A stretch of DNA of 64,000 bases, taken from assembly GCA_032622095.1 (NCBI GenBank), contig CP136069.1:158399043-158463042 (forward strand). The letters run 5' to 3'. Source of the DNA: Siphonodentalium dalli (Eukaryota > Mollusca > Scaphopoda > Gadilida > Siphonodentaliidae). A program made the translations under genes and the position numbers. Shown piece after piece: positions 20,761 through 64,000 of the stretch (positions are counted from its first letter, which is position 1; each line of letters starts with the position of its first letter). Below the pieces are notes generated by a model, which did not search any database, was not told the origin of the DNA, and saw only the letters and a program-made list of their open reading frames with translations.

Positions 20761-20774
20761 TTAAAGACCTAATT

Positions 20775-22046
20775 GATTCCACTGAGGACGAGAGTTTCTC
20801 GGGTCTTGAGTCTGTTACGCCTTAATTGATTCCACTGAGGACGAGAGTTTCTCGGGTCTTGAGTCTGCTAAGCCCCAATTGATTCCCCCGAGGACGAGAG
20901 TTTCTCGGGTATTGAGTCTGTTAAGCCCTAATTGATTCCACCGATGACGAGAGTTTCTCGGGTCTTGAGTCTGTTAAGCCCTAATTGATTCCACTGAGGA
21001 CGAGAGTTTCTCGGGTCTTGCGTCTGTTAAGCCCTAACTGATTCCACTGAGGACGAGAGTTTCTCGGGTCTTGTGTCTGTTAAGCCCTAATTGATTCCAC
21101 TGAGGACGAGAGTTTTTCGGGTCTTGTGTCTGTTGAGCCCTAATTGATTCCACTGAGGACGAGAGTTTCTCGGGTCTTGAGTCTGTTAAGCCCTAATTGA
21201 TTCCACTGAGGACGAGAGTTTCTCGGGTCTTGTGTCTGTTAAGATCTAATTGATTCCACTGAGGACGAGAGTTGCTCGGGTCTAGAGTCTGTTAAGCCCT
21301 AATTGATTCCACTGAGGACGAGAGATTCTCGGGTCTTGAGTTTGTTAAGCCCAAACTGGTTCCACTGAGGGCGAGAGTTTCTTGGGTCTTGAGTCTGTTA
21401 AGCCCTAATTGATTCCACTGAGGGCGAGAGTTTCTCGGGTCTTGAGTCTGCTAAGCCCTAATTGATTCCCCCGAGGACGAGAGTTTCTCGGGTCTTGAGT
21501 CTGTTAAGTCCTAATTGATTCCACCGATGACGAGAGTTTCTCGGGTCTTGCGTCTGTTAAGCCCTAACTGATTCCACTGAGGACGAGAGTTTCTCGGGTC
21601 TTGTGTCTGTTAAGCCCTAATTGATTCCACTGAGGACGAGAGTTTCTCGGGTCTTGTGTCTGTTGAGCCCTAATTGATTCCACTGAGGACGAGAGTTTAT
21701 CGGGTCTTGAGTCTGTTAAGCCCTAATTGATTCCACTGAGGACGAGAGTTTCTCGGGTCTTGTGGCTGTTAAGCTCTAATTGATTGCACTGAGGACGAGA
21801 GTTGCTCGGGTCTTGAGTCTGTTAAGCCCTAATTGATTCCACTGAGGACGAGAGTTTCTCGGGTCTTGAGTTTGTTAAGCCCAAACTGATTCCACTGAGG
21901 GCGAGAGTTTCTTGGGTCTTGAGTCTGTTAAGCCCTAATTGATTCCACTGAGGGCGAGAGTTTCTCGGGTCTTGAGTCTGTTAAGCTCTAATTGATTCCA
22001 CTGAGGACGAGAGTTTCTCGGGTCTTGTGTCTGTTAAGCCCTAATT
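20775..22046 (+). repeat. 53-bp minisatellite, 24 units, with 11/10-unit higher-order repeat
   Basis: The unit (starts 'gattccactgaggacgagag', contains 'tttctcgggtcttgagtctg', ends 'ttaagccctaatt') repeats 24 times over exactly 1272 bp with no length change. Variants recur in order. The 'cccccgagg' unit at 20881 returns at 21464 (11 units), whereas the 'gttgctcggg' unit at 21252 returns at 21782 (10 units). One unit was therefore lost from the second higher-order copy, apparently by fusing two neighbouring units near 21517. Each unit can form a short CGAG/CTCG hairpin. Single diverged units lie in the flanking duplicated modules. Confidence 0.95.
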
Positions 22047-22326
22047 GATTATACTGACGGGCGTTTCTTGTCTGAAAGGCACAAGAAACACGACAAAGCT
22101 TTCCGTACTGTCAGTGGTTTTTCATATTCCAAACATTCGATTGATTCCGCTGAGGACGGGAGTTTCTCGACAGAATATAGCAACATGCACCCCAACTTCT
22201 TTCTATGGTACATTGGGGAGTATATGAGATAAAGTTCTGACTCGGATCTTTATGCTCACTGAACAGAAACACGCAATAAATTGGTTGTATTTGTTTTTAC
22301 ATTAATTCATGGTCTTTCGTTGTAAA

Positions 22327-33638: not shown

Positions 33639-35251
33639 TTATGTGGTGTGAGGCTTCGGTGAGCAGCTGTGAAAGTGCATGTACACCGATCCACTGAATG
33701 TTACGTTTGAGAAAATGGATTTCAAACTTTGCATCGCACTTGATGAACTCACAACTCCAGGTGAACCAATAAGGTCATTATTCGATACAGTAACTGTCGA
33801 TTTCGAAACAGTTACATTTGTCGGTGATGATGTTGAAATAGTGTCAGAACTTGGTACAGGTGCAGGTGCGGTTTCCAATACTGGTGAAAGCTGGACTACA
33901 GGTTGTGCAGCTGGGAGTACTGTCTCTGACTCTGTGACTTATTTCCAGCAGTATTTGATAAAATTGAAGAAATACGTTTTGTTTGGACAGCATTCATTTT
34001 GGAGTAGTTCAACAAACTGTTTACATTCTTGTGTCCTGACACTTGGATTATCTGATGCGGTGGTACATGTTCATCGTTAAGTGAGTGGATCAGCAGTTTT
34101 CGAACACTGTAGTTGGTAAGTCGCTTATCCGTTGTGAGGCCTGAGTCTACACACGTGCCCTGCACAATTCTATTTAAAGAATTAATGCCGAATGCATTGC
34201 GCTTATACCAAGGCTTGCCTTTATTCCAGCCCTGGTACTTGACAGCGAGGAAGAACGGGCTATCTGGATATTTTTCCTCTTCTGGTCGCTTCTCGCTGAA
34301 CAATCGATATAATTTAACCGGGTCTCTCTCTGGGTTGTCGGTCGAATATGCCCTTGGTTTAATTCTTCTGATGTGTCGTGGATTTTCACCGGTTCTTGTC
34401 TTTGTTTGTCGCTCCTGTGTGTAGATGATATATTCCTGTCCATACTCATCTTCTTGCAGACTGGTGTCGCCCCATTTCAAAGAATGAGTTTCCTCCCCTG
34501 TTTTCATTCCGAAGTACAAAACACAAGTCCACCACATAATTTTGTAACGACTTTGGGTTATATGGTCCAAGAACTTGCGCCCCATAAAATCGCTCAACAT
34601 CATCTTGTGTAATCGGATCTGCTTCAAATGGCTTACTGCCCTTTCCTATAGACTTCAGTTGTTTCTGTTTGCTTTTCAGAGTTTCACGACATGATTCAAA
34701 CTGATTATTACTTATGAGGGAAACTGGATATGATCGCATCCTGAGGTATCAATCAAGTGAGGGCATGAACGCTCGAAGAGACATTGACTCATACTCAGTT
34801 CCATCTTTTTTTCTCACAGATAGGAGGAAACTTGATATATGCCCACATCGAACATTTAGGGAATGAATTCGGGCTGCCTCTGTTCATCTTTACTCAGCAG
34901 AAATGTTCTAAAGAGTTTAATATCATATTAAGTTTTTTTAACAGTATTTTTATTTCTTTGTTGGTCATTGAATTGAAATACTTCCTCATCAGTTACATTT
35001 GTAAAACTGGAACTTACAGTGGAAGTTGAAAGCAATGGCAATATCGGCAATGCAGCTGAGGCTGAGTCTGAGGCTGAATTCAGTAGTGAGCTTGAAGTGG
35101 AAGTTGAAGCTGCAGGAACCTGCTGGTCAAATATAGAGTCACTATTCCGAACACAAACTTGTGGGTCTTTATCATTATATTTAGCTAATTTTTCCAGTAA
35201 AGAGTCCCAAAACACACCGCCTTCTCCGTCGATTTCAAATCCGTCTTCCAT
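33639..35251 (-). pseudogene. Crypton-type tyrosine recombinase (DUF3504-like) pseudogene
   Basis: On the minus strand a run of frames rebuilds the order of a Crypton recombinase. ATG at 35251 gives a Ser-rich N-terminus, then TDEEVFQFNDQQRNKNTVKKT, an in-frame stop at 34928-34926, and YDIKLFRTFLLSKDEQRQ. Downstream comes NNQFESCRETLKSKQKQLKS...GKGSKPFEADPITQDDVERFYG (34739 onward). A frameshift near 34540-34560 leads into VLYFGMKTGEETHSLKWGD, the catalytic arginine region. It continues with ERQTKTRTGENPRHIRRIKP, a WYKRNAFGIN segment, TNYSVRKLLIHSL, SGHKNVNSLLNYSK (nucleophile Tyr) and a stop at 33896-33898. A last frame (33878-33639) ends SIFSNVTFSGSVYMHF, the usual C-terminal tail. The canonical NHSVRK is NYSVRK here, so a catalytic His may be lost. 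Cryptons are DNA transposons with this recombinase, and related domains occur in KCTD1 and QRICH1. The copy is dead but recognisable throughout. Confidence 0.85.
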
Positions 35252-35426
35252 ATTTTACTTGACGAATGACGTTGCTAATGTAGACAGGAGTCTGTGATGC
35301 AGTTAATGGGGAAATACTCTAATCTCACGCTCAAATGTGCAAATAGTCCGTATCGCTTCAGGCGTATGCATATCAATTCCAAATTTAACGGCATTACAAT
35401 TGATTCGCCCCGATTGGAGCAAGCGT

Positions 35427-35492: not shown

Positions 35493-38103
35493 ATATAACG
35501 TTGGCTGACAGTTGGGCGCTCGACTAGCGAAATATAGCTTTTTACTGGAACAAGAAATCAATAGAATTTGATAGGGAAGCATATAATAAATATTTTTTTA
35601 TTACATTACAGTTAATTTTGGGGCAATTTCCGCAAATCTCTGGAATGTTAAAATGACTTTTATCATTTTACTTACAAACTAATTTAATAGTTTAACAGTT
35701 CATGTTCAGTATATAGTTCAACACATCATAAATATGACACATTATAAACAATTAATATTCTACAGTTACATATCAGTTTTGTCTTAATGTAGTAGTGTAC
35801 ATTATATCAAATTGATCCATGATATCTAATTTTTTGAGATCCGGAATATAGAACTATTGTATTAATTATTCCATCAGTGATTATGAGGTTGAAATATATC
35901 TGAAGAACAAGTACTAGTTTAGGGGTCGATACTATGAACTTTTTACAAATTGTTAAATTGTACTAATTTGTTATTACTAACTATTTAACGACAAAGCTTC
36001 CTGGTAGTGCTGGGGAATAATTGTGAAAACCAAAAGTGGTCTGTAAACGGAATATTACCCAGAATACCTTAATATGAATGATAATGCATGTGCAACAGAT
36101 GGCGAATGCCATAGAATGGGGTCTGGAATCACAGCACTTGGTGAGAAGTTTGTGTTAAAAATTAGCGATTAGCGCCTGTACTATAAAAACGTGTAACTTA
36201 GTTTGTTGGTAACTTTTGCTTACAAATGTCATTGAGAATTTACCAATTGAAAGAGGTCCGAAATATAGAACGATGGTAGTCATTATTCCTCCTCTTGTGA
36301 TCGTTCTGTATAGAGATATCTGAAGTGCAACTACCTGTTCTGGAGGTATATCTCAGCAATTGTCATCAAGATATTATTTTTTTAAATATTGTAGAGATCT
36401 CATATAATGGTTCTCCTAACTTCTCCAGCTTCTACCAATGCATTATTTGCTTCAATCGATATTCCATACATTCTTTTAAATTAAATCTATTAAACTACAA
36501 CTAATATTAGGGCATTAGGGCATTTATTTACAACAGTCATGACATTTATGAAAAAAAATCTGAAAATATTTAAGAAATGTAGTGAACATTTTGAAAAAAA
36601 ACTACGGAAATAGCAAATATGAAAATATAAAATGAATATGGAAATCGAATATGTTTCAATATATTTACAAATTAGATTTCCGCCCATCCCTATATGTAGC
36701 TGTACACAAATTATTTTAGTTGTATGGGGCTGCAAATACAAAACATGTAATCCGGGGGACATAGCTGCGATCCCATGTCGCCTCTGTCGAATGTGGCATT
36801 GCTTGTTTGATAATTTCATTATCTTCAAAAGCTATGACAGATAAAATAAAGTTAGATATTTAGTTGTGCAAGCTGACCAACTCCGTGTTTTACCTGTGGG
36901 GAATAGCCTGATTTCTCTCTACTGAATTCTGTCATCTGCGCTTGCAAGACAATATTTTGAAATTGCTACGGTAACTTGTCTATATTTCAACTATTTCTTA
37001 GTTCTATTGTATCGCTATTGGGTAGAAGAAGCTAATTTAGTGGTCACGGTCTGCTTGTGGGTGAAAATTGTCAATGTAAGTTTAAAACGTTTAACTACGA
37101 GTGTTATGTTTATATGCAAACCAAGGCGCATAAGGCGTTCGGTGAATAATGATACGAACGCACCAAAGACATTTGTTTACGCCGAGAATTCCTGTCTAAA
37201 ATAAAACAAATATTCATGGGGTCTTTGCCGAAAACAATATTAAACAGTATGCCTCCCAAGTGGGCTAAAATTGCTGGAAAATATGTACTGCTACCATGTG
37301 TTCAATGCAAATTCCCACTGCTTCCAATGATACACCATCAACCAGCCATTTTTGCACAAGACACATAAGAAACCACCACCTGTGCGATAATCAAATAATT
37401 TCTCCTGATATGGTAAAATATAAAGAGCTGTGGTATCACTGTGTTGTGTTAAAAAGTATGTAGAGTATGCTTATCAATATGCCATGTATTTATTTCATCA
37501 ACTTCTTTTGATTTGCAATACCTGATAAAAGTGACTATGTGTACTTTGATGTATGAAGATTACGAGTCATATACATTGTGGTAAGCATGTAATTATATAC
37601 ATTTTGCATAACGAAATACTACTTATAAGAATTACGAATAGGGTACTCTTTACGTCAATATAATTTGTGTTCTTTCTATATGTTGTCGTTCTGTCATACC
37701 CGTAGTTGCGATTGTGGTTGCGGGGGGTTTCTACAAGTTCGAGGTAGTTTCTCTGGTCATTAATGTGGGAGTTAACTCTGAGATTGTGCCCTTGTAGTCG
37801 ACACGTAGCTTGATTTCTATCGCTCTGTGGCAAACAAATATTTTTCGCCGTCAATCACCGAGCCAGCCACTGAACGTAACCTGACGGCAATGTAATTAAG
37901 TACAAAATAATCACGGCAATCAGAACCATTTCACCTTACTGCGAGTGCCGAGGTGTCACAAACGGACTCTTAGTCGTCAATTCTGAGAAAATATCTTTGG
38001 GCCGTCCAAAAATTACGACTACTACACGTATTAGCTATTCGTAATTCTTATCAGCAGTAGTTCATTATGAGAAATATGTCTAATGGTTTACAATTGAAGC
38101 TCC
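35493..38103. other. non-coding; 3' flank of the minus-strand gene
   Basis: Frames at 36490-36828 (minus), 36632-36844 (plus), 37007-37204 (plus) and 37567-37854 (minus) show no motif. The segment immediately below 38104 should include the 3' UTR of the PAN-domain gene. A minus-strand AATAAA is present near 37491-37496, but I cannot tell whether it is used. Confidence 0.35.
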
Positions 38104-38927
38104 TCATGCTTTGACAATTGTTTTCATTTCCTGCTCGTCCTTTCCGCTGTCAGCCACTTTTCTCCGAAATAGTTTGGGGAATAGCTTAGTGGTATCGAAT
38201 AGAACCATCACGACGAACGGAACCACAACAAGGATCATCGCAGATGCTCCTATCGCTTGTGATGATGGACGCGGATCCGGAATGGAAATCTTCTGTCGTA
38301 ACGCTTGGCTTGTCGCGTTCTTGGTTATCTCTAGCTCTTGTACCAACTGTTCTATTTTCGTCGCAAGCTCAGCTGATGTCATATTGTTGGACGACCTGGA
38401 ACTTGTCTGACCATGATCGCATATTGCAGTGGTGGCGAAAGAACTAGACGCTGTTACTGTTATAGTTAATGTTGATAGTTGCGTGGATGTCTCGGATAAT
38501 GAACACAATGGAGTGGTTGTAATTATGTTGGTTTCTGTGCGGATGACAGTGTATACCTGTGTTGTAGATTCTAATGTTTCACGTACCGTTTCTGTTGCAC
38601 AAGTCGCTGTTGCTATTATAGTTGATGCTGAGAGCTGTGTGATTGTCTCTGATGCAGAACATGGCGGAGTGATTGTAATGCAACTGGTTTCAGTGTGGTT
38701 CAATGTGGGTGTCGCTGTTACTGTTATAGTTGATGCTGAGAGTTGTGTGGTTGTCTCGGATACTGAACATGACGGAGTGATTGTAATTAGACTGGGTTCA
38801 GTGCGGATCAATGTGGATATCGCTGTTGTAGATACTACCGTTTCAAATACCGTTGTGGCAGCAGATACCGTTTCTGTTGCAGAAGTCGCTTGTATATTGC
38901 CATAAAATACACTCGGTTGCTGTCCTC
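38104..38927 (-). CDS. terminal exon of PAN-domain membrane protein: Ser/Thr-rich repeats, coiled coil, transmembrane segment
   Basis: A minus-strand exon of 273 codons plus stop. The start is set at 38927 by a strong acceptor (pyrimidine tract then 'cttccag', AG at 38929-38928), which gives phase 1 and matches the donors of the two upstream exons (43153-43230 and 44656-44865). The product begins GQQPSVFYGNIQ and continues into a Ser/Thr-rich mucin-like stalk with three imperfect copies of IRTE...ITITP.CS.SET.TQLS..TITVTA, each holding one Cys. A heptad-like helix (LATKIEQLVQELEITKN) follows, then TSQALRQKISIPDPRPSS, one transmembrane helix (AMILVVVPFVVMVLF) and a short Lys-rich cytoplasmic tail ending EMKTIVKA. 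I recall this stalk, 'K..TS...R.KIS..D.R.SS' and TM layout from mollusc surface proteins, so a type I membrane protein is inferred. An in-frame ATG at 38979 lies in the intron side and is not preferred. Confidence 0.75.
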
Positions 38928-39700
38928 CTGGAAGAGAATTGAAGTGTGTCATAATTTTAGTTTCCGAATCCGGTCGCATTACCCATTCAGAATATCTCGA
39001 GTTATGAATTGCTGGTTGGGACTTATCGTCTCAGGCTATTAATATCCGATGGAGGTTGAAGCCTGAAATTATGCTCGCTTTTGTTACATATTCCGGTGCC
39101 GAGGATAAAAATAGGTGGATAAGTTCTGTATGAAATACTACGGTGGCTGATGTAGTACATAACAAATATTTTCATCTCGAAATTTCGACATACTATAGAA
39201 GTTTTATCGAAATTTCGAAATGTTATCTCGCCGGGTTAATACCTTCACATCACATGCAACTCAAATGGAGATAAACGACCTCATAACTATAGTTAAATAG
39301 TTTATGCACACTCCAGATCTAGGGTGGTGTAGATTTTCCATTAGATCTCTTTGTAGACGGCATTTGTATATAGAACCGATTTTTAGGCTGTTATTTTCTA
39401 AGTTGAAGCCGACTAAATGTGTACATTTGGACTACGTTCCACCCATGTATTCGGAATATACATTTTCTACAACTTTCTACAATTTCCAAGTGTATTTGAT
39501 AATTTTAGTTTGTCATAATGTTTGTTTCTGAATCCAGTCGTGTAACTTTAGTGGTGTATCATGAAGCATAGCTCGATTTGTGTATTGCTGGTTGTGACTT
39601 ATGGTCTCAGCCGATTAAAGTACGATTGCCGGGGATCTACATAGATCGACAAGTTCTGTATGGAATACATACATGTATGACAGAGGAACTTATTCAAACT
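38928..39700. other. intron with internal duplication
   Basis: The 5' flank of the terminal exon (38945-39140) is partly repeated at 39505-39690. Shared phrases are 'tgtcataat.tt.gtttc.ga', 'attgctggtt', 'gacttat.gtctcag' and 'aagttctgtatg.aatac'. The duplicate carries no intact exon. It may be the remnant of a tandem exon duplication. Confidence 0.5.
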
Positions 39701-40170
39701 TGGAACCACGATCCATCGACCCGGTACTTCGCGTAGGAGTTGCTATCTACTCAACACACGTTGTTATATTTCTAGTGCTCTCATACAATGTCCCTTGGTA
39801 GGTTGCTGCGATTCTTGGAGCAGTCATCCAAAACAATTGAGGGACTGCAATAAACATGCATTGGATTCATGCCAATTAATATACTAGTAAATTGCAATTA
39901 CAAGCCTATACAATGATGTATGTTCAGCTTTATTAAATACGAATACTATAATTTATTACGTTCATTCAGCTGACATTATGATGGCAGCGGTCCGAGGTTT
40001 ACGATGCCGAAACAGAACCGGGAACGGTGGTCGGGTACTGTGAATCCCCTGGTTTCGATCGATTGGAAGAGAATCCATGAATATAGAACTATTTGAATGA
40101 GTTTCGTGAAACCAGAGTACGGCCGACCAATATGACGTGTCGCAAAAGATGCAACTCTTACTCTAGTAAC
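39701..40170. other. intron, nothing recognised
   Basis: No motif-bearing frames between the duplicated segment and the SINE. Confidence 0.4.
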
Positions 40171-40437
40171 CCCCTCCCCCGGTGACTGATTTGGTAAGGT
40201 GAATGGCACATTATACCAACATAAGCCGCCCAGCGATGGCGACCTTGTTCAAATATTTGTGATCCACTCAAATGGAATGAAGCATGATTCTTGTATCTGG
40301 GCAAGTTTATGTTGGTTTCTTCTGGCATATTTCCCAGTCAAATCAGCCATGTGCACGGTCTTTCCTCCAACCGTACGATTGGCAACGTGATGTCATAGCG
40401 GCTGAAACAACGATAAACCCCAATAAGCTAACTAACT
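40171..40437 (+). mobile_element. tRNA-derived SINE, diverged full-length copy (copy 2)
   Basis: Same order of blocks as the 23843-24129 copy. These are 'ccggtgactgatttggta' (decayed A box), 'ataagccgcccagcgatggc', 'accttgttcaaat' (decayed B box), 'gtatctgggcaagttta', 'cacggtctttcctccaacc', 'attggcaacgt', 'catagcggctgaaa' and 'cgataaaccccaataagcta' leading into a 'ctaactaact' tail. It lies in the large intron of the PAN gene, opposite to the gene's orientation. Confidence 0.75.
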
Positions 40438-41344
40438 TATATGCTCCAGTATCTTATAATCACACCAGCCATTTAATTGGCAACAATAACCATGTGTCAT
40501 GTTGCCAGCCTGTCATCGTGTACTTCACTGTGACACCGAGATAAAAATATTACATGTATCTATATTCCTAGATCCTTTGAACAAGTCAGTAGTTGTAAAA
40601 AGAGCTGAAGAACCTTGTGACAACATATTTGTTATTAAGTTATATTTTAAAAGTATGGCAACCATCTTATCTAATTTGGCAAGAATAAGTTCACTTTCTT
40701 GGAACCAATGTGCAAGTATGCTTCCAGAAAATTGTAAGACATCCTGGGGTCTTGTTCATTTCATTCACCTGGATGAATAGTACGCATGTAATTTATAAAT
40801 TAAACCGGTAAATTCCTTGGCAAGTGCAATTTGTAATACCATTTTCACGAATAACTCAGATAGCTCTTGATTCTAATATATATGGGAGCCTATGATACTG
40901 CTGCATGCAGATACCAAGCACGCATAGGTTTTAAATAATTTATTTTTAGCATCAATATTAACGAGTCAAATTTCTGAACCATACTAAAATCTAATGATCA
41001 TACCCTGAGAGCTACGTAATCCGACATCCGGAAGACAGTCAGCGTAAATACACATATAAACCATCCATTATTATACTTGTACCGCGACCGGTGTTGAATT
41101 GCAGGAAAGTGTTCTTTTTTGGCATTTGACAATATTGGGTAATAAACAACTCCGCCCCACAAAGTTGCACACAATATGTTATGTGCAAACTTTCGTGTTA
41201 ATGAGATAACACACCTTTATTTTATAGCTCAAACTTGTTTATATTGATTTCCCTAAACTATTTCAGATTAGTCTCTCAACCCGTAGAACGTTTTGCGCCA
41301 ATCCGAATAAAGTTTAGTCACCCACAAACGATTCAATACAGACA
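40438..41344. other. intron, nothing recognised
   Basis: The 93-codon plus-strand frame at 40499-40780 has no motif and opposes the gene. No supported feature. Confidence 0.4.
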
Positions 41345-41730
41345 GCTTAAATGTACTCAATCCGATCAGAGGGTCCTATATTACTATTTCTTTGGCTTTG
41401 GGGGTCAAATATATTTGATTCGAGTCGAGGAACCCATCCATAAAAACTCAGAGTGTAGGATGGATAACTCTAATTTCAAGTGGTTATTATTGTTAATAGT
41501 AGGCACTTGATTTTAGAGTTATCCATCTTACACCCGCAATTTGTCCGTTTTGATCACGTGTTTTGCCAACTTATGGGCTATATATCCGAAAATTAATAGA
41601 TTTAAAAATTCGATATCTAATCACTCTGAGCTTTGATGGGTGAGTTCCTCGACTCGAATCAAATATTTTTTACCTCCAAAGCCAAAGAAATACTAATATA
41701 GGACCCTCTGATCGGATTGAGTACCTTTAA
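41345..41730. repeat. inverted repeat, about 108-bp arms (foldback)
   Basis: The left arm 41345-41455 ('cttaaatgtactcaatccga' to 'aaaactcagag') is mirrored by 41624-41730 ('ctctgagctttgatgggt' to 'gattgagtacctttaa'). A second, inner inverted pair ('gatggataactctaatttca' near 41459 and 'gattttagagttatccatct' near 41511) lies between the arms, so the whole can fold as nested stems. It is intronic. Confidence 0.85.
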
Positions 41731-42529
41731 ATTGACCCAAGTCACTCACAATGTGTAAATGTGCAAAACGTCTGTAAAGTCATCACCAATACGAAGAACT
41801 TCGTTCTTATAGTAATTTGAACACAATCCCATTGTTATGAACGTTCCCCGACTTTTAGTAAAGCACACGAACTTCAAAGTCGTGATCAACGTGGACCAGC
41901 GCACGGGTTGCATGTCGTGGTCAACACACGCTCAAATGCGATTTCCAGCTAATCCACTGTGAGCAGTCAATTGTGCTCTTACAAAGAGTCTTTATTTATC
42001 TGGAACTATTTCTGTAAGAGGGCAAACAACGTAATAGTTACGTGATACGTGATCACATGCCTTACTTGACTCGTTTTATAAATTCCGCTATAAACTGAGG
42101 ACTCATTATAGATCCTCTATATATTTTAACCTAAATATGATTTTCAGAATATTTTTTCCATGCTTTGACATTTTCCAATTCCTACCGACAAGTTTGTGTT
42201 AAATTTGATATCTTACTGGACTAATTGGAGTTGTATTGATAATTCAACTGTTTGCCTACATGTAACAATGGTTGACAAGCGAAATCTCAATGGAGAGTTA
42301 TTATAAATGAAAATAAGAACAAAGTCAATCTATTTTTTTTCAAACACTTGTTGATGATTGTTGGTTTAAAGATTTTTATGATATTTTGCATGAACCCACT
42401 TCGAAGGCCATGCGTACTTTTAAACAGCAGTCTCCATACACTTGTGTATTGTTTAATCTGGAAAAGTAGCATATATTTGTATGAGTTCATTGATATGGCT
42501 TCAACTAAGCCAGTGTTTTCAAAACTCAG
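41731..42529. other. intron, nothing recognised
   Basis: No supported features. Short frames only. Confidence 0.4.
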
Positions 42530-42745
42530 AGAGTTTCTCGTCAGTTCAGTCCAGTATGTTTTCCAGAAAACTCACACATTATCTGCTCATAATAAAATTT
42601 GTTTTAGTTCGATACACTGCTTAGAATCCCCTCATTTTGAGTCGATAATGAACTGAAAATGAGAGCATTTTAGTCACATTATAGACTAATAATTACATCG
42701 TTATAAGTTTTTTATGTGCGGACAATGACACAAATAAACCAACTC
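42530..42745 (-). mobile_element. palindromic MITE family 'M', inverted copy in intron
   Basis: In plus-strand order: 'cacattatctgctcataata', 'actgcttagaatcccctcat', 'ttgagtcgataatgaactga', 'cattttagtcacattataga' and 'tgtgcggacaatgacacaaa'. It matches the 3' half and core of the family. Confidence 0.7.
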
Positions 42746-43152
42746 AAGTCTTTATGAACGTTTATTATTTGTTTGTAAATAGGTGACTTGAGATTCTGAA
42801 GCATTTTTGTTTCTGAAAATTGATTCCCTCGGTTTCTAGTTTGTTTGGTATATAACAGTTTGCTCTGCTTTATCCAGAATAAACCAATGTATTCTAGTGT
42901 TGCCATTTTATGAGCACTATTGATGATTCAGTCTTTTTGATATTTATGTCAATAGAAATATATATGTTAAGTTCCGATATGTTGGCCAGGCAGCTTTCAC
43001 GTAGTTTCAGAGAGAGCAGGCGTTAGCGCATATGTTTGCGTATGGACATGTCTGGGTTTAATAACCCAATCAACAAAAGGGCTGTATATATTTAGGTATA
43101 ATAACATACATAGGGTGCTTTGCAGTCAAAGTATTAGTAATTGTGTTCTCAC

Positions 43153-43230
43153 CTGTGGTGTAGTCACATGTGTCGGTCGGATCTAGACAATCGCTCGGTG
43201 GAGGTATACTGTTATCAATTGTCGCCCATC
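43153..43230 (-). CDS. middle exon of PAN-domain membrane protein (linker)
   Basis: A 78-nt minus-strand exon. The acceptor 'attaattccag' (AG at 43232-43231) and the strong donor GTGAGAAC (43152 downward) give phase 1 at both ends, matching the PAN exon upstream and the terminal exon downstream. It encodes 25 full codons, WATIDNSIPPPSDCLDPTDT then CDYTT, with two cysteines and a Pro-rich start. Joined in order the three exons keep one reading frame (junction codons AGA and GGA). The exon is too short to assign a domain; a hinge between the PAN module and the stalk is the likely role. Confidence 0.62.
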
Positions 43231-44655
43231 CTGGAATTAATTATACACCTAGCACACAGCATATATATATAGTTCGTCGATCACGACAAACACGATTACA
43301 AGGGTTGTACATCGTGACAATTTGATGTTGTACGAGCAAAAAGAAAAACATATATACATGAAATTAAAAATAGCGTACCACTGAAACACACATATCTCTT
43401 ATTACATGATACTACTCAAGGAAATTATCAAGATCGATTATGGTCTCACTTCTATTCTAACGTCAATAATTCACAAAAACCTAAATCGCTTTCTAAATTT
43501 CTAACTCCAATCACTTGAGTAATGTGTAATAAATATGGTATTCTCGTTGAACACTGATCAGCCACATATACGCGTAATTTGTAACTTGTGTTATTGTCAA
43601 CGGAAGTCACATTATTGTTGTTCCGCCTACATGAACGGGGTCAAACCGTTTTGAAGTTTTGTGTCCAACGTGTAGCAATATGCAGCCCTGATTAATAATC
43701 AAATCTTCTGATAACCGAACGAGTGACCCAACGCAACGCGCGCAGACTGACAATGGGAAGGCATAGACAAACGTTTCGTTACTGCAAGAAAACGTTTTCA
43801 AAATTTATCTGGATCTAACCAGCAAAAAAACTCTTGAGTTTTACGTATCATCTTCGCTGCATGTAGAATCCCGACAAATATTAAGAGAAGACCAAACCAT
43901 TTATATAAATACACTTTAAAAGTTAAACTTTGTTTTTTTTTTGTCTATTAGGGTTCCAATAACTGCCAGAATAATTAGTATTAATTAAGTTCACAGCACA
44001 AGCAAATCACCAGACTAGCTTATTGTCTTGACTATACGAGAAGCTTTATTTGCGTTATAATGCTGAGGTATTTTTATTACATTATATAACATCATATCCC
44101 AATATATTACAATGAGGAATAAAATAGCCACAAATACTTAAGCCCAAAGAATAAAAATACTGATATGCAGTCTGGACCACCCAGTTAACTGAAAAATTGC
44201 TACAGTATTGGAGATGGTGGTAAGCTGGGATATGGTTGTATACATAAGACATAACTAATCTTATGCTCTCAGTCCATTTTATTGACTAACAGACATGATT
44301 GTCGTGAACATTCTCAAATAGAGAAAATACCGCACCGACTGAAAGTTTGTAGTACCTTAAATCAACAACAAATCGTGTAATAATGGCATAGCAAGTGAAC
44401 TTGTAACTTCTATCTGATTGGTGATTCTTAAATTATGTGTCGCGTTGATCACATGTACCAAATTCCAAATTTCAGAAAGAAAATCCAGACTTCAACAATG
44501 AAGGCGACGATGAGATAGTAGTATTTCACATGGTGATTATAATGGCGACGGCAAACAGAAAGCTTGTTATTAAAGTCACGACAACAATGGCGATGACGAC
44601 GCCGGTTATAAAGAACAAGCGAATGATACTTTTTCGAATTTGTAAATCTACTCAC
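43231..44655. other. intron of the PAN gene
   Basis: No further exon was found on the minus strand. A short frame at 43607-43801 (minus) has no motif or good splice sites. Confidence 0.4.
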
Positions 44656-44865
44656 TAGGAGCGCAATTTTTCCGCTTCATGACACCGCGGCCGGTTACTA
44701 TGTTTCCAGAATTAACTTGATTTCTGAAAACGTGGCAGGTGTTGTTGAAGTACAATGCGGCCCAGCAATTTGTTTCTCCGAGACAGATGTTGTCACAATT
44801 GTTCTCGCTTGTGGTCGACACAGGAACCGTGATGTCGCATGCGAAGTCCTGCTCCATAACACACG
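44656..44865 (-). CDS. PAN/apple-domain exon of a secreted or membrane protein
   Basis: A 210-nt minus-strand exon between the acceptor 'ccttctttaatag' (AG at 44867-44866) and the donor GTGAGT (44655-44650), phase 1 at both ends. It encodes CVMEQDFAC, then NNCDNICLGETNCWAALYFN and NTCHVF, with a final Cys in KRKNC. The CxxxC...C.A..y....C.v spacing and length (about 70 residues) fit a PAN/apple module, a Cys-rich extracellular fold for protein or glycan binding. A symmetric 1-1 exon is typical of shuffled extracellular domains. It splices in frame to 43153-43230 and then 38104-38927. The exon with the start codon and signal peptide was not found; the region upstream has been disrupted by a 0.75-kb repeat and a 4-kb LINE. 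Confidence 0.7.
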
Positions 44866-44867
44866 CT

Positions 44868-45030
44868 ATTAAAGAAGGATAGTTATTATGTGTATGTTAT
44901 GCGTGGTGACGCGGAATAACGATGAAAAGAGCAAGCGGCTATGGCGAATACCAAGCGGGTCGACCAAAAAGAATCGCTGACTGATAACCAACATTTTAGT
45001 GTTCATGATACACACTTTTTCAGAGACAAA
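44868..45030. other. intron 5' to PAN exon, nothing recognised
   Basis: Short spacer. A minus-strand frame with ATG near 45024 encodes a hydrophobic stretch but ends before the exon and has no usable donor. Confidence 0.3.
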
Positions 45031-45778
45031 TATTGACTACTGCACTCAACAAAATTGGGTTGAAATTAACTAAATAACCCAACGTTTAGTGAACCGAATC
45101 CGACTAAACGTTGGGTTAGAGCTATTGACTAAACTGTTAACCAAACATTGAGTTATGGTAACCCAACTTTGTAACTAATCGATGGTTTAAATTAATCAAA
45201 TATTTGGTTCAGAAGTAACTAAACATGGGATTAGAGAAAAACTATGTCAATATATAATTATATTTCATCTCAATGAAGGAGTTTTGACCACATAATCTGA
45301 GATTCTCTGGTCATTAATTAAGTTTTCCCAACAATAAATCCAATGAAATGTTTCATTTCGTACATTAACGTCTAAATAGAGATATATTGAATTAAAGCAG
45401 ACTTCGAACCTAGTATGTAGTGTGGGAGTCCGAGACGAGATGTAACATATCATGACTTCCTTTTCGGTAAAACATTAAAACAACATCAAATACTTGTACG
45501 AAAGACACACGCAATACTACAACTATATAATGCCGAGTTAACAGATGCCTTCGCCCTGTATTTATTTGAGTTTAATACCAATCAAAAAAAATATGCAAAG
45601 AGAGCTCACATCCAGCAGAACTTTATCAAGGAACGCAACTGAAAACCGGTGATTATTAACTAAACTAATCTAACTCAACAATTTAACCCAATTTCTGGAA
45701 TTTGACACAACCATTAACTTAACTTTGGATAACCCAACCATTTTGACTAAACATTATTTTGAGTGAGTGCTGTCAATA
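45031..45778. mobile_element. possible MITE rich in AACCCAACC-type subrepeats
   Basis: The ends are imperfect inverted repeats: 'tattgactactgcactcaac' (45031) versus, on the minus strand from 45778, 'tattgacagcactcactcaa'. Both terminal regions contain many copies of 'taacccaac' and 'gactaaac' in both orientations (45050-45240 and 45650-45750), for example 'aacccaacgtttag' mirrored by 'ctaaacgttgggtt'. No protein is encoded. Confidence 0.5.
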
Positions 45779-45916
45779 ACTGGTTTTCAATAATCTGATA
45801 TGTGCTATTTTCAGAGTTCACGATGGCAGGACAATTCTTAGTGGCTTTTTTTTGTTTTTTTAAACTTGGTCCAAATTGAAAAACCAAAATATGGGATCAT
45901 CGAGAAAACCGAAACT

Positions 45917-46008
45917 AAAACAAAAATATAAAGAAACACACACACAAATATAAAGAAACACACACAAAAATATAAAGAAACACACAAAAATATAAAGAAA
46001 CACTCAAT
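45917..46008 (+). repeat. tandem repeat, about 21-bp unit x 4
   Basis: Unit 'aaatataaagaaacacacac' repeated four times, shrinking towards the right. The hydrophobic minus-strand frame over it (Phe/Val/Cys runs) is an artefact of the repeat. Confidence 0.9.
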
Positions 46009-46577
46009 AATAACTGAAATTTTTTCAAGTTGCCACATATGGAAATGAAATTTGTGAACTGCAGAAGCTGTTATGCTATGCTTTAACCACCCATATATGA
46101 ATTCACGTGTTACTAGTGGCATGTGTATACATACAAGGTACTAAGTGTAATATGTATGCATATACACACAATAGAGTATTGCCGTAGTCGCTCTATTTTC
46201 CATCTTCTGTCCTCGTTATATCGTCATGTTCATATTCATCGTCATACATTTAATTAGAAATTTAGCATATATGTATTCGAGGGTGTCATATAATGAAAGT
46301 GTCAATTACAATGGCCCTCAACTTGTAGATGAGATAATGACATACATCACAGTCAATGAGCAATAAGGAATGCGGAAAGTTTAAATGTTTAAGCAATAGC
46401 AGAGGTCAATCTGAATAGCCATATACAGTTTGATATTAACTGGACGAATGATGCTGGCTCTAGGGTGGGCTGAAGTATTTAAATATATGCTTAGACAGTG
46501 ATATCAGCTTGGAGACTCCATTTCTTCCAGCATCTTAACACTTCCACGGCTGGATCTTCCTGAAATTTTGCGAAACT

Positions 46578-46686
46578 CATCCCAATAGGAGACTCGCATA
46601 TATAAGATAATGCACTGGCTTACAAGGTCAGGGTAAATATTGTTAGGCCAATGCATTCTCTTATATATGCGGGGCTCCCTATGGGA
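46578..46686. repeat. inverted repeat at the LINE 5' junction
   Basis: 'ccaataggagactcgcatat' with 'aagataatgcactggc' is mirrored by 'gccaatgcattctcttatat' with 'gcggggctccctatggg'. A related single end ('tatatgcgaggatccctatg') occurs near 10264-10283, so this is a dispersed small foldback. The LINE begins about 20 bp to the right. Confidence 0.6.
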
Positions 46687-46702
46687 CAGGGTTTTCGCAT
46701 AG

Positions 46703-49700
46703 GTAAATATCACCATTGAAAATGTGAGAATTAGTTTGGCTAATATTTATGGGCCAAATAACGATAACCCAGAATTTTACCATAACCTGCAAAAAGCAAT
46801 TACTAAAATAGGCAATACTCAAATCGTAATATGTGGTGATTGGAATTTGGTTCAAAATCAAACGTCCGATACTTTTAACTATAAACATACAAACAGTCCA
46901 CGCGCACAAGAGGCGGTGCATAGTCTTGTCGATAGGCTCGAACTAATTGATGTATGGAGATCCAATAATAAAGAACTTAAGCGTTTCACTTGGAGAAGAA
47001 AGTCACCTATAAAAATGGCGAGGCTGGACTATTTCCTCGTATCAGATGATATTTTAAGCCAAATTGGAGAGAAACCAAACATACTGCCGGGATATAGATC
47101 CGATCACTCGATTATAACATTATCACTAACATTAAATACTCACCAGAAGGGTCACGGTTTTTGGAAATTTAATCTTTCACTTCTACGAGACAAAACATAT
47201 ATCGATATGATGAATGAGCTCATTGAAACCAATAAGATTCGATACAACTACACTACAGACGAATTAGATAGTTCCCCTCATCATACTTGTAAATGTGATA
47301 TCAGCAAAAGACTTTTTCTAGATTCACTTTTATTGGATATAAGAGGGGCTACCATTGCTTACTCTTCAAACAGAAAACGAGATCGTAAATCAAAAGAAGA
47401 ATCTCTACAGAAAGCTAAATATGATCTTACCGAATTGGTTGATAAGAATGGGTCGGACATTGAACAGAAGGTGAAACTTCTGGATGAGATACAAAAAGTC
47501 GATAACGAGTTAATGGATATGAGAAAGGAAGCTACAATGGGTGCAATGATAAGATCTAGAGCAAAATGGATCGAGGATGGCGAAAAACCAACAAAATATT
47601 TCTTAAATTTGGAAAAGCGTAATTATATATCCAAAACCCTGACCAATCTGATAGACTCAAATGGGAAATTATTAACCTACCAAAATGACATTATTAAAGA
47701 AGCTCGTAACTTTTATCAAACTTTATACGCTTCAAAATGCACTACTCAATCCGAGACACATTTTGCCACTTTCGACAATAACGTTTTGAAACTAAATAAA
47801 GATATTTCAGATAGTATAGAAGGGCCAATCACCATACATGAACTGTCTGCAGTATTAAAACAAACAAAGAATGGTAAGACATGTGGATTGGATGGATTTC
47901 CGTATGAATTTTGGAAATTTTTCTGGCGAAAGCTTGGGCCTATTTTATGTGAATCTCTCAATGAGTCCTATAAATCAGGAGAGCTCTCCATTACACAAAA
48001 ACAAGGAATTATAACTCTTCTCCCCAAAAAAGACAAAGACAGACATCTTCTAAAAAATTGGAGACCGATTACCTTATTGAACAGCTCATATAAGCTGGCA
48101 TCTGCATGTATAGCTCAGCGGATGAAACAAGTTCTCCCCCATATCATTAACGAGGACCAAACGGGTTTCTTGAAGGGCCGATACATAGGAGACAATACAC
48201 GACTGATTTATGATCTTATATACCAAACTAACTTGAAGAAAATTCCTGGCCTCTTACTACTTTTAGATTTTGAGAAAGCATTTGACTCTGTATCGTGGAA
48301 ATTCATGCACAAATGTCTTGAATTTTTCAACTTTGGAGAAACGATAAAAAAATGGATTTCAATATTTTATACGAATATTAACTCTTCCTTACTCATAAAT
48401 GGGCACATATCACAATGTTTCACACTAGGTCGAGGCTGTCGGCAGGGCGATCCTATATCTCCGTACATTTTTTTGATTTGCGCAGAAATCCTAGGTCTCA
48501 TGATTAGAAATAATAAAAAAATCAAAGGAATTACCCTCGATGGTTTTGAATTTAAGTTAACGCAGTACGCAGACGACACGACACTTATTCTAGACGGTTC
48601 CGAAAGTAGTCTGAGTGAGGCTTATTCCACCCTAAATGCCTTTGCTAAAATATCGGGACTCAATCTCAATGCGAGTAAGTGTCAGGCGTCGTGGATTGGA
48701 TCAATGGTGGGGCGGCAAGAAAATATATGTCCGGACCTGCATCTCACATTTTCTGACTCATTTAATCTTCTTGGAATCAACTTTAATACTACTTTAAACA
48801 AAATGTCGATTAATTTTGAAAATAAGCTGAATGAAATTAAACGATTAACAGAAACATGGAATCATCGACTACTTACCCCATTTGGTCGTATAACAGTTAT
48901 AAAATCCATCATTATCCCCAAATTAACTCACCTATTCATCGCATTACCTAACCCCAACAACAATTTCATGACCAAACTCGAAAAAATACTATTCAATTTT
49001 CTCTGGAATTCCAAGCGGGACCGAGTAAAAAGAAAACTCGTCTGTCAAGACCACTCTCACGGTGGAATGAAAATGGTAGATGTAAACAATTTCCTCATGT
49101 CAATGAAAATAACTTGGGTGAGACGATTGTTATTGAAAAGTTCAAAATGGACACCCCTAACCGACCTTCCTATCACCAAAGACCACCTATTTCTGACATA
49201 CAACCATGCTTTTCTAAAAAACAAAGCTAATGTCGTGAACAATCCTTTCTGGCATGACGTACTACTGGCTTTTGCAAATATGTTAGAAAAAAATAAGAAA
49301 CAAAATCGATTTCAGGCATGCACTGTTTGGAACAACCCCGATATAAAACTGGAAGGACATACCATTAATTTTTTTTCATGGCAAAAAAAAGGAATTATAT
49401 ATGTAAATGACTTGTTTCAAAGAGGTGGCATATTACACACAGAACAATCTTTATTCGAATGTTATCATATACGTACAGATTTTCTGACAATGAACAGCAT
49501 CCGCCAACAAATAATAGCTATGTCACAAAAGCTCAACCAACCCTTATTTCGTATTGAAAGCCCTTTCCTTCCAAGTAATTTTGTTATCCCATTGAACAAT
49601 ACTCATGGTGGACAGGACTTCTACAAAATTTTAAATTCAATGAATATCGTACCAAAATCCCATACAAAATGGCAGGCTGAATTTGAGGATAATGACATTC

Positions 49701-50629
49701 AATGGGAAAACTACAACCGGCTTGCTTTCACCACGACGCCTGACACGAAAATGTGGTGGTTACAATATAGAATTAATCATAGAATACTTTCCACAAAGAA
49801 ATTTCTTAAAATGGTCAACCTAGAACAAAATGATTTATGTAATCGCTGCGGCACAACATCTGAAGATATATCCCATATTTTTTGGGACTGTCCGCTTGTA
49901 AAAAACTTTATAAATGATGTTACTATTTGGTGCAAATCAAATGGTATCGCCTTGTTAGCCACAAGAAAGATTGCAATTCTTGGATCCCTATCAATGGGCG
50001 GTAACTCTATGATGAATCTGTTTTGGCTACTGATAAAACAATACATATACAAAACTAAATTTAATCCTGATATGTTATCACTAAAATCCTTTCTATCAGA
50101 ACTACAATCTAGATATTTACAGGAGAAATTGTTGGCACAGTGCCAAATGAAATTACCCTCTTTTGAGAAAAACTGGTTTTTAATCATTGAAGCTCTTAAC
50201 AAAACGTCAGAAGCAAACAAACCATGATGTATCAAAATATCGTTCCCGAGGAATAAGTGCCGAAAAACCGCCGAGTTGACCCACCAGAAAGGGAAAAAAC
50301 TTATTTCAACATCAATCAAAATCCCATTATACTCAGCAAAGAGCTATATATACACAATTAATATCTTATAAGCCTTGAACCTACCGATATTAGCTCTTTG
50401 ACTAAACATATGTCTAACATAGCCTGCGGGACCCATACCAGAAACGTGTATAATTATAAACTTGTCGCGATGAGTGAAAGAGCATGTGAGCGAAAGGATG
50501 TATGCAAGTTACTGATAGACTGGGGATGAAAGAGTTAGTGTGTGATCTTTTTTTGCAAATCTTGTTACAATATTTATATACATTTAATCTTGATCAATAA
50601 AAACTTTAAAAAAAAAAAAAAAAAAAAAA
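46703..50629 (+). mobile_element. 5'-truncated L1/Tx1-like LINE with poly(A) tail
   Basis: A non-LTR retrotransposon insertion. The coding frame is open from 46703 (codon after a stop at 46700-46702), runs to 50227, and is followed by a 0.38-kb 3' UTR, a polyadenylation signal AATAAA (about 50596) and an A-run at 50608-50629. Truncation removes ORF1 and the first half of the endonuclease. I could not identify a clear target-site duplication. The long undamaged frame and intact tail indicate a recent insertion. Confidence 0.92.
46724..50227 (+). CDS. LINE ORF2: endonuclease (C-terminal half) - reverse transcriptase - zinc knuckle
   Basis: A frame of 1167 codons counted from GTG 46724; the true start is lost and the frame is open from 46703. 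Residues 1-150 are the C-terminal half of an APE-type endonuclease: NIYGPN (7-12), GDWN (38-41), RLDYFLVSD (about 101-109) and SDHS (about 126). The N-terminal catalytic part is missing. Reverse transcriptase motifs follow: NWRPITLLN (about 446), QTGFLKGRYIGDN, LLLDFEKAFDSVSW (about 512-525), GRGCRQGDPISP (about 569) and the catalytic YADD (about 615). A C-terminal C-x2-C...H-x4-C knuckle, CNRCGTTSEDISHIFWDC, is at about 1039-1056. The gene copies LINE RNA into DNA at a nicked target. The domain order and motifs place it in the L1 clade, probably Tx1-like. No internal stop or frameshift is visible. Confidence 0.93.
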   Translation: MRISLANIYGPNNDNPEFYHNLQKAITKIGNTQIVICGDWNLVQNQTSDTFNYKHTNSPRAQEAVHSLVDRLELIDVWRSNNKELKRFTWRRKSPIKMARLDYFLVSDDILSQIGEKPNILPGYRSDHSIITLSLTLNTHQKGHGFWKFNLSLLRDKTYIDMMNELIETNKIRYNYTTDELDSSPHHTCKCDISKRLFLDSLLLDIRGATIAYSSNRKRDRKSKEESLQKAKYDLTELVDKNGSDIEQKVKLLDEIQKVDNELMDMRKEATMGAMIRSRAKWIEDGEKPTKYFLNLEKRNYISKTLTNLIDSNGKLLTYQNDIIKEARNFYQTLYASKCTTQSETHFATFDNNVLKLNKDISDSIEGPITIHELSAVLKQTKNGKTCGLDGFPYEFWKFFWRKLGPILCESLNESYKSGELSITQKQGIITLLPKKDKDRHLLKNWRPITLLNSSYKLASACIAQRMKQVLPHIINEDQTGFLKGRYIGDNTRLIYDLIYQTNLKKIPGLLLLLDFEKAFDSVSWKFMHKCLEFFNFGETIKKWISIFYTNINSSLLINGHISQCFTLGRGCRQGDPISPYIFLICAEILGLMIRNNKKIKGITLDGFEFKLTQYADDTTLILDGSESSLSEAYSTLNAFAKISGLNLNASKCQASWIGSMVGRQENICPDLHLTFSDSFNLLGINFNTTLNKMSINFENKLNEIKRLTETWNHRLLTPFGRITVIKSIIIPKLTHLFIALPNPNNNFMTKLEKILFNFLWNSKRDRVKRKLVCQDHSHGGMKMVDVNNFLMSMKITWVRRLLLKSSKWTPLTDLPITKDHLFLTYNHAFLKNKANVVNNPFWHDVLLAFANMLEKNKKQNRFQACTVWNNPDIKLEGHTINFFSWQKKGIIYVNDLFQRGGILHTEQSLFECYHIRTDFLTMNSIRQQIIAMSQKLNQPLFRIESPFLPSNFVIPLNNTHGGQDFYKILNSMNIVPKSHTKWQAEFEDNDIQWENYNRLAFTTTPDTKMWWLQYRINHRILSTKKFLKMVNLEQNDLCNRCGTTSEDISHIFWDCPLVKNFINDVTIWCKSNGIALLATRKIAILGSLSMGGNSMMNLFWLLIKQYIYKTKFNPDMLSLKSFLSELQSRYLQEKLLAQCQMKLPSFEKNWFLIIEALNKTSEANKP

Positions 50630-51620: not shown

Positions 51621-51850
51621 AATTAGTTTGTTCATGAGCTGGGCAGAACACCGTCCACATATAATTGCTCGTGTAATTAACATGGCATAGCCATACTTTT
51701 GAGACTTAAGCCACATCAAATGGATACTTTGACAGACAGACAGATATACTGTAAAATAAAGATATATAGCAGTTATTGACTGCAACTTTGGAAGAGATGG
51801 CAGGGATTATTATCATTCTTTTAATCGACATGCTGAATATATATATATGT

Positions 51851-52006
51851 CATCAACGTCATTTTTCGGTTGATCTATGAGCGTATAGACCGATCAGTAG
51901 ACGAATAACATACTGTATAATTCCGCGAAGAGGATTATACTAAGTATGTTATTCGTCTACTGATCGGTCTATACGCTCACAGATCAACCGAAAAACGACG
52001 TTGATG
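51851..52006. repeat. near-perfect hairpin, about 70-nt arms
   Basis: 'catcaacgtcatttttcggt...gaataacata' is mirrored by 'tatgttattcgtctactgat...cgacgttgatg'. The centre 'ataattccgcgaagaggattat' keeps partial pairing. A (TA)n run lies immediately outside the left arm. Confidence 0.9.
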
Positions 52007-53785: not shown

Positions 53786-54059
53786 TTAGCATAAAACAGT
53801 AAGCAGAGATGGAGTAGTTTGCTCACGTTCGGGTGACGATGCTTCACAAACGAACTTCTTCTGTTGGTAGCAGTCATTTTCCCAAAGTATCATTTCGGGG
53901 TGAGCGTTGCTCCCAGATGTTCCAAGATGCACACACGTTTTTTGCGAGTCGAAATGGCCGATGAAGTACCCAAGACCATCGACAGTCTCACATGTATTCC
54001 ACATAGCAGCAAATCCACTGGAGTCGCCAACAATTCTAGCTCCAACATGTACATGTAGA
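53786..54059 (-). CDS. terminal exon of a C-type-lectin-like gene (partial)
   Basis: Minus-strand last exon, 90 codons plus stop. The acceptor 'tgtgtatattacag' (AG at 54061-54060) sets the start and leaves one base to finish a codon (phase 2 intron). The product contains FAAMWNTCETVDGLGYFIGH, CVHLG, and then MILWENDCYQQKKFVCEA, which matches the C-terminal signature of C-type lectin domains (C.....W.d..C....fvCE). A short Ser/Glu/Thr tail follows (SSPEREQTTPSLLTVLC). No EPN/QPD or WND calcium triad is evident (WEND instead), so sugar binding is uncertain. The stop codon overlaps a minus-strand AATAAA (gcTAATAAAA), so the 3' UTR would be very short. The N-terminal exons, expected above 54.1 kb on the same strand, were not found. 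Confidence 0.52.
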
Positions 54060-55396: not shown

Positions 55397-55458
55397 TCTC
55401 GTCGTTATATGGCTTTATTGCTAAAACGATGTTAAACCCCAATCAATCAATCAATCAA
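55397..55458 (+). mobile_element. extremely 5'-truncated SINE with target-site duplication
   Basis: Only the last 62 bp of a SINE: 'tcgtcgttatatggctttat', 'tgctaaaacgatgttaaacc', then (CAAT)n. It resembles the 3' end of the copies at 23843-24129 and 40171-40437 ('gacgataaacccc...'). A 13-bp repeat, gctatattccttt, flanks it (55384-55396 and 55459-55471). The truncation at the 5' end with intact tail and duplication shows target-primed reverse transcription. Confidence 0.85.
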
Positions 55459-63477: not shown

Positions 63478-64000
63478 AAACGGCCGAGCCGATTTCGATG
63501 AAATTTGGTATGTCGGGGTATTTTCGGCCGGGGAGTGACATAGGCCTATTAATTTGCCCGTGCGACGTGACCTTGACCTTGAAATCGGGTATTTTCAAGG
63601 TCAAACGCCCGAATATCACGGGATTTCGATGAAACTTGGTATGTGGGGGTACCTTCGGCCGGGGAGTGGCATAAACCTATTAATTTGCCCGTGCGACGTG
63701 ACATTGACCTTGAAATCGGGTCATTTCAAGGTCAAACGCCCGAATATCACGGGATTTCGATGAAACTTTGTATGTGGGGGTACTTTCGTATGGGGAGTCT
63801 CATAAGCATATTCATTTGCCCGTGCGACGTGACATTGACCTTGAAATCGGGTCAATTCATGGTCAAATCGCCAATTTTGATGGGATTTCGACGAAATTTT
63901 ATACATAGGGTTACTTTTGTCCACTGAGTGTTTTGGACGGGTCAAATCGTGACCCCGACCTGACCTTGACATTCAAAATGATCAATTCGAGGTTAAATCG
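63478..64000 (+). repeat. 131-bp tandem satellite, about 4 units, continuing past the window
   Basis: 'gatttcgatgaaa' recurs at 63491, 63622, 63753 and 63884, a spacing of exactly 131 bp each time. Other landmarks per unit are 'ggtatgtgggggta.cttcg', 'ggccggggagtg.cata', 'tttgcccgtgcgacgtgac', 'ttgaccttgaaatcggg' and 'tttcaaggtcaaacgcccga'. Divergence increases to the right. Apparent proteins here (PVRRD.DLEIG..) are repeat translations. Confidence 0.95.

Follow-up and report, generated by a model that had tools for sequence, protein, structure and literature searches.

Do three short stretches of open reading frame, scattered over some 7 kb of repeat-bearing DNA, make up a gene, is that gene complete, and what would its product do? 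These questions are raised by minus-strand exons at 44865-44656, 43230-43153 and 38927-38104 in the 64,000 nucleotides of Siphonodentalium dalli DNA analysed here (the window). An earlier note had joined them into a single gene encoding a PAN-type domain, a linker, a mucin-like stalk and a transmembrane helix.

Exons, phases and splice signals

The three exons (210, 78 and 824 nt) are present at these coordinates; AG precedes all of them and GT follows the ends at 44656 and 43153. The frame is in phase 1 at the entry of the first exon and at both junctions, and the joined product is open for 369 residues up to a stop, which agrees with the splice signals, phases and continuous frame claimed before. 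Splice sites were scored with a home-made matrix built on consensus frequencies. On this scale the acceptors at 44865, 43230 and 38927 rank in the top 2.2%, 6.1% and 0.06% of 3110 AGs, and the donors at 44656 (CTA/gtgagt) and 43153 (CAG/gtgaga) in the top 1.5% and 0.08% of 3819 GTs. Nevertheless, exons of similar quality also arise by chance: symmetric phase-1 exons scoring at least 6.2 number 10 in the whole window (two of the claimed exons counted in) against a mean of 2.55 in 20 Markov windows, and the same count with the symmetry condition dropped gives 38 against 17.9. Taken alone, splice signals and phase are thus weak evidence, and neither they nor a cysteine pattern, each by itself, is proof of a gene.

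The linker exon (43153-43230, minus strand; 78 nt, phase 1-1), with three consecutive prolines and two cysteines, stands apart from its surroundings. Among the 94 open symmetric phase-1 exons of 30-300 nt in the interval 44655-38928 it ranks first with a score of 9.1; the runner-up, at 3.1, is a shorter form of the linker using the same donor, and the best exon that does not overlap it scores 2.7. This rank between the flanking exons upholds the very short exon of the earlier note. Its skipping would leave the frame intact. Repeats of at least 25 nt internal to the interval 38928-44655 fall into two families of direct and two pairs of inverted copies. A self-search for paralogues of the exons returned, besides the self matches, weak ones only (E 0.082 or worse), and the Rfam and tRNA scans gave no matches.

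The PAN domain, the stalk and the membrane anchor

The first exon (44656-44865, minus strand; 210 nt, phase 1-1) has AG/GT borders and an open frame, and its peptide reaches 24.3 bits with the Pfam profile PAN_1 (PF00024; curated cut-off 21.4 bits). Exons 1 and 2 together give 24.4 bits and the open reading frame 44896-44651 gives 22.2, also above the cut-off, whereas the full joined product, at 19.0 bits, falls below it; the reversed PAN peptide, used as control, has no match in Pfam. The profile check suggested in the earlier note hence sustains the PAN assignment at the level of the exon peptide. PAN/apple domains are built on a central cysteine core and an outer cysteine pair. The exon encodes seven cysteines, including CDNICLGETNCWAALYFNNTC. 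Their C-x3-C-x5-C-x9-C spacing provides the core, and cysteines at residue 1 or 9 and at residue 67 are available for the outer pair, with one cysteine left over. The core motif is weak evidence, since our self-written pattern for it has three matches in the window, and Markov windows contain 0.39 each on average. The PAN exon had no match among the solved structures of the PDB, PAN plus linker had none in NCBIfam, and the single-sequence AlphaFold2 model of the exon (pLDDT 46.7) was too low in confidence for use.

Beyond the junction codon, the last coding exon (38104-38927, minus strand) has a further 273 open codons, which run through a Ser/Thr-rich stalk, a short possible coiled coil, a transmembrane helix and a basic cytoplasmic tail, to a TGA. 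Measured from stop to stop its frame has 308 codons, exceeding the longest stop-free run in each of 50 Markov windows (mean 153, maximum 223). The closest downstream AATAAA is at 37494. The three Ser/Thr repeats reported earlier are found in frame as a tandem repeat of three related 35-residue cores within 38446-38814, minus strand, starting at 38814, 38706 and 38550 and carrying one, two and one cysteines, respectively. The repeats of a mucin-type (PTS) stalk are rich in serine and threonine and also in proline. In the 159 residues of this stalk Ser plus Thr account for 44.7% but Pro for 3.8%, so that the Ser/Thr-rich half of the term mucin stalk stands and the term itself is loose; a classical mucin domain is ruled out by the proline content. 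Four N-glycosylation sequons were counted. Between the repeats dN is smaller than dS in all three comparisons, none of which is significant (Fisher tests on rounded counts, P 0.76, 0.27 and 0.09), and the idea that the repeats demonstrate selection was dropped. The coiled coil keeps only a marginal standing, as a short possible stretch whose best register has hydrophobic residues at five of nine a/d positions. The single transmembrane helix, by contrast, is clear: the 19-residue hydropathy mean at residues 321-339 is 2.74, the next best segment reaches 1.28, and a tail of net charge +4 follows.

Could the exons be unrelated and joined by chance, or represent a decaying or untranscribed copy? 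The chance yield of symmetric exons of equal splice quality, the background frequency of the apple-like core and a 5' end that was not found would all be compatible with this. Against it stand 369 codons free of stops and frameshifts, the PAN_1 match, the long frame of exon 3 with its membrane helix and tail, and a linker that is the best exon in its interval, and we regard such an origin as improbable. The stretch very likely holds the 3' part of an ordinary animal cell-surface protein gene, incomplete in the window. With considerable confidence, the three exons can be read as the 3' part of a gene whose product is a single-pass membrane glycoprotein of type I, with a PAN/apple domain, a two-cysteine linker, a Ser/Thr-rich stalk of about 160 residues with three repeats and, behind a transmembrane helix, a short basic tail.

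The 5' end and a possible lectin-like exon upstream

As a complete gene the three exons do not hold up, because no convincing signal exon was found; moreover, they may be joined by a further exon upstream, whose donor at 53827 is in phase 1. A strict search upstream for a signal-peptide exon gave no candidates. A looser one gave 16 rows, six of them with phase-1 donors and five of these six sharing the donor at 59496. The phase-1 search that had been proposed thus yielded, within 44.9-64 kb, weak candidates only for a signal-peptide exon or start codon, and the 5' end of the gene may lie beyond the window.

The possible upstream exon (53827-54059, minus strand, phase 2-1) resembles the C-terminal half of a C-type lectin domain, ending C...WENDCYQQKKFVCE, and has an acceptor (ttacag) in the top 6.5% and a phase-1 donor (gtgagc) in the top 2.0%. 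If it is joined to the PAN exon, the gene would read signal, C-type lectin domain, PAN, linker, Ser/Thr stalk and transmembrane helix, an arrangement to which we give an even chance. The joint would span a 9-kb intron bearing a LINE (46703-50629, plus strand; endonuclease, reverse transcriptase and zf-RVT, poly-A at 50608-50629) that lies antisense to the gene. The joined frame is open and scores 21.4 bits with PAN_1, exactly at the cut-off. Upstream candidates with phase-1 donors (19 kb searched, 60-320 nt, minimum splice scores) number four: two are versions of this exon, a third is antisense in the LINE and the fourth consists of a hydrophobic stretch. However, the full-length version scores last of the four (4.0), and a shorter one with a different donor comes second (4.8).

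The lectin resemblance itself is limited. The C-terminal signature occurs once in the window against 0.13 expected, with a pattern that was relaxed to fit after the sequence had been seen; a stricter published signature would presumably not fit. Neither Pfam, NCBIfam nor the PDB returned a lectin match for the exon: the PDB gave seven weak matches (best E 0.033), five of which we take to be proteins with WW domains, and NCBIfam one meaningless match (E 0.1). When a C-type lectin profile was scanned over 2159 open reading frames, the minus-strand frame 54579-54448 came first (E 0.34) and the lectin-like frame next (E 1.6). The former was judged a chance match rather than the first half of the domain, because the part of the profile to which it aligns would be filled by the start of the lectin-like exon. 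It lies shortly upstream of that exon, in the correct order. No first-half lectin exon was recognised among nine phase-2 candidates upstream, and the four phase-2 starts there are all weak. Hence a complete C-type lectin domain was not found: there is no profile match, and the relaxed C-terminal signature is the sole resemblance.

The lectin-like frame could alternatively stop at its own TAA, which is overlapped by an AATAAA, in which case the exon would belong to a neighbour or be a relic and a signal-peptide exon would be spliced directly to the PAN exon. The donor at 59496, which follows ATG-started hydrophobic frames in five of the 16 rows of the looser search, would suit such a shorter gene. 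It is weak (2.5), however, and the surrounding frame is hydrophobic over most of its 162 residues and has no Pfam match; a poly-A signal overlapping a stop codon would, in addition, be unusual. We consider the shorter gene doubtful. The choice bears on another claim, that every internal exon is symmetric. This is correct for the PAN and linker exons, both 1-1, but since the lectin-like exon is of phase 2-1 the rule would fail if that exon belongs to the gene. The general premise is sound: class 1-1 symmetry is the rule for shuffled extracellular domains, in passages of a source that do not name PAN (PMC8001218).

Probable role and relation to known proteins

The product is most likely an ordinary surface protein of type I, of known kind, that serves recognition or adhesion. 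Its PAN domain, possibly aided by a C-type-lectin-like domain further upstream, would bind a glycan or protein ligand, held at a distance from the membrane by the O-glycosylatable stalk, and the cysteines of the stalk repeats may allow chains to cross-link. As the tail is short, direct signalling would require a partner and is less likely than adhesion or ligand capture. A bolder reading, in which a diverged C-type lectin domain, PAN and the Cys-bearing Thr/Ser repeat stalk form a lineage-specific receptor cross-linked into cell-surface multimers, seems to us unlikely. The literature matches listed contain no description of this combination and, by title and opening of the abstract, no PAN protein with a Ser/Thr stalk and transmembrane helix in molluscs or close kin. 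A pattern scan for an orthologue in viral contigs gave 17 matches, none confirmed.

The gene shares with PAN/apple proteins the PAN_1 score and the C-x3-C-x5-C-x9-C spacing. It differs in presenting a single PAN domain on a membrane stalk; the PAN members of blood clotting and the growth-factor group are secreted, with kringles or proteases. Another comparable protein is LET-653 of C. elegans, with PAN, mucin-like and ZP regions, whose PAN domains bind luminal matrix (PMC4970718). The likeness is an extracellular PAN beside a mucin-like stretch; Pfam detected no ZP domain in the joined product, and a LET-653-like identity was rejected on this ground, though an undetected upstream exon might still encode one. 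If the upstream exon belongs to the gene, the mollusc multi-domain C-type lectin proteins (CTLDcps; PMC10140915) would be comparable in combining a lectin-like domain with other extracellular modules, although the lectin part here is without profile confirmation. The main text of that paper contains the word apple nowhere and pan twice, once as pan-genome in a reference.

The locus opens no long-standing question and represents no new kind of system. Its yield is one more gene model for an animal genome, plausible and easily overlooked; should the lectin-like exon prove part of it, the gene would be a further example of module shuffling in surface recognition proteins. The case also indicates that, between well-supported flanking exons, even a symmetric linker as short as 78 nt can be traced by its splice sites and phase.

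Exon structure and chance controls

The three minus-strand exons proposed in the earlier note are present exactly at 44865-44656 (the PAN exon, 210 nt), 43230-43153 (the linker exon, 78 nt) and 38927-38104 (the last coding exon). AG precedes all three and GT follows the first two, both junctions fall between the first and second base of a codon, and the joined exons read through 369 residues to a stop, holding PAN module, linker, Ser/Thr stalk, membrane helix and short tail in one frame. On a simple splice matrix built on consensus frequencies, acceptor 38927 and donor 43153 rank among the best 0.1% of candidates, acceptor 43230 is weaker (top 6.1% only), and at donor 44656 the last exon base is not the usual G; the splice sites are good, though uneven. 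The nearest downstream AATAAA lies at 37494. The intron ahead of the last exon contains an inverted repeat at 41347-41730 (arms of 109 nt, 92% complementary, spacer of 166 nt).

At 308 codons between stops, the frame of the last exon is longer than the maximum stop-free run of every one of 50 Markov windows (peak 223), and the linker exon, scoring 9.1, ranks first among 94 open symmetric phase-1 exons between its flanking exons; the runner-up (3.1) is a truncated version that uses the linker's own donor, and the next candidate that does not overlap scores 2.7. The window contains 10 symmetric phase-1 exons that score at least 6.2, counting the two claimed, versus a mean of 2.55 in 20 Markov windows; when the symmetry condition is lifted the counts are 38 versus 17.9. 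The apple-type Cys core, by our own pattern, occurs three times versus 0.39 per Markov window, and at least once in 35 of 100 such windows. Given these controls, neither phase nor Cys pattern, on which the gene had been proposed, is sufficient by itself. Skipping of the linker would also preserve the frame, so its inclusion is not forced by phase. The symmetry noticed earlier holds for the two exons named, both class 1-1, in agreement with the rule for shuffled extracellular domains, stated without naming PAN (PMC8001218); a possible upstream lectin-like exon, if included, departs from it (phase 2-1).

PAN module, stalk and proposed role

Pfam PAN_1 (cut-off 21.4 bits) recognises the exon-1 peptide (24.3), exons 1 and 2 joined (24.4) and the surrounding ORF (22.2), and the reversed peptide gave zero Pfam matches. 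With the lectin-like piece in front the score is at cut-off, and the full joined product falls below it (19.0). The stalk has 159 residues (Ser+Thr 44.7%, Pro 3.8%), the product carries four sequons, the single membrane helix claimed is clear at residues 321-339 (hydropathy 2.74), and the tail has a net charge of +4. The three Ser/Thr repeats are seen as related cores that begin at 38814, 38706 and 38550, with 1, 2 and 1 Cys, the first and third sharing by eye a related head segment; differences among cores lean synonymous, not significantly (dN/dS about 0.7, 0.5 and 0.5). The suggested coiled coil is marginal, with at best five of nine a/d positions hydrophobic.

The product would be a type I surface glycoprotein whose stalk may raise the PAN module off the membrane, and this module, perhaps with a lectin-like one, would bind glycan or protein ligands. 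Since so short a tail leaves no room for an obvious signalling domain, capture or adhesion is the likelier role. LET-653, whose PAN domains bind luminal matrix (PMC4970718), is a precedent for matrix binding by a PAN module. PAN domains, Ser/Thr stalks and mixed modular receptors each belong to a known kind, and the exact combination is not described among the matches listed from a literature collection that covers a minority of subscription papers. The gene model is real and sensible; its biology is ordinary.

The 5′ end

The gene start is not established within the window, and the model lacks a complete 5′ end. Over the 19 kb upstream, four candidate exons of 60-320 nt had a phase-1 donor and reached the minimum splice scores set: one runs antisense in a LINE (6.2), another is a hydrophobic stretch (4.5), and the remaining two share the frame from 54059, with donors 53992 (4.8) and 53827 (4.0). 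The long form, 54059-53827 (minus strand), resembles the second half of a C-type lectin domain and ends in WENDCYQQKKFVCE. The ending signature of such domains, which was loosened once this exon had been viewed, has one match in the window versus 0.13 per Markov window (100 windows). No library match names a lectin here, a home-made C-type lectin profile gives this frame just E 1.6 (2159 ORFs), and no first half of the domain was recognised among nine phase-2-donor candidates further upstream. The chances that this candidate exon belongs to the gene are even. Bivalve C-type lectin domains are found in uncharacterised combinations (PMC10140915). As for an upstream signal-peptide exon, there are weak signal-peptide-like starts near 59.6 kb.

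Other elements in the window

The LINE (46703-50629, plus strand) lies between lectin-like exon and PAN exon. Its endonuclease/RT/zf-RVT frame is uninterrupted over 1174 codons, and its poly-A end occupies 50608-50629; no target-site duplication emerged from a simple search for exact matches across 44901-46760. The first part of its frame appears cut or shifted. The broken frames of a tyrosine-recombinase-like gene (33639-35254, minus strand; DUF3504, Pfam 48.2 bits), with a Ser/Thr/Val-rich tail, are probably the remains of a decayed Crypton-like element. Two long nearly complementary arms at about 51850-52002, delimited by eye, form a hairpin that resembles a foldback or MITE element. The TGATTGATTGGGGTTTAACATCGTTTTAGCAATA repeat at 55398-55457 (minus strand) is reminiscent of one common in molluscan genomes, a possible hint of the organism group. 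Tandem arrays comprise a minisatellite at 20764-22057 (24.4 copies of a 53-bp unit, 92% matches) and a satellite-like array at 63491-63872 (2.9 copies of a 131-bp unit).
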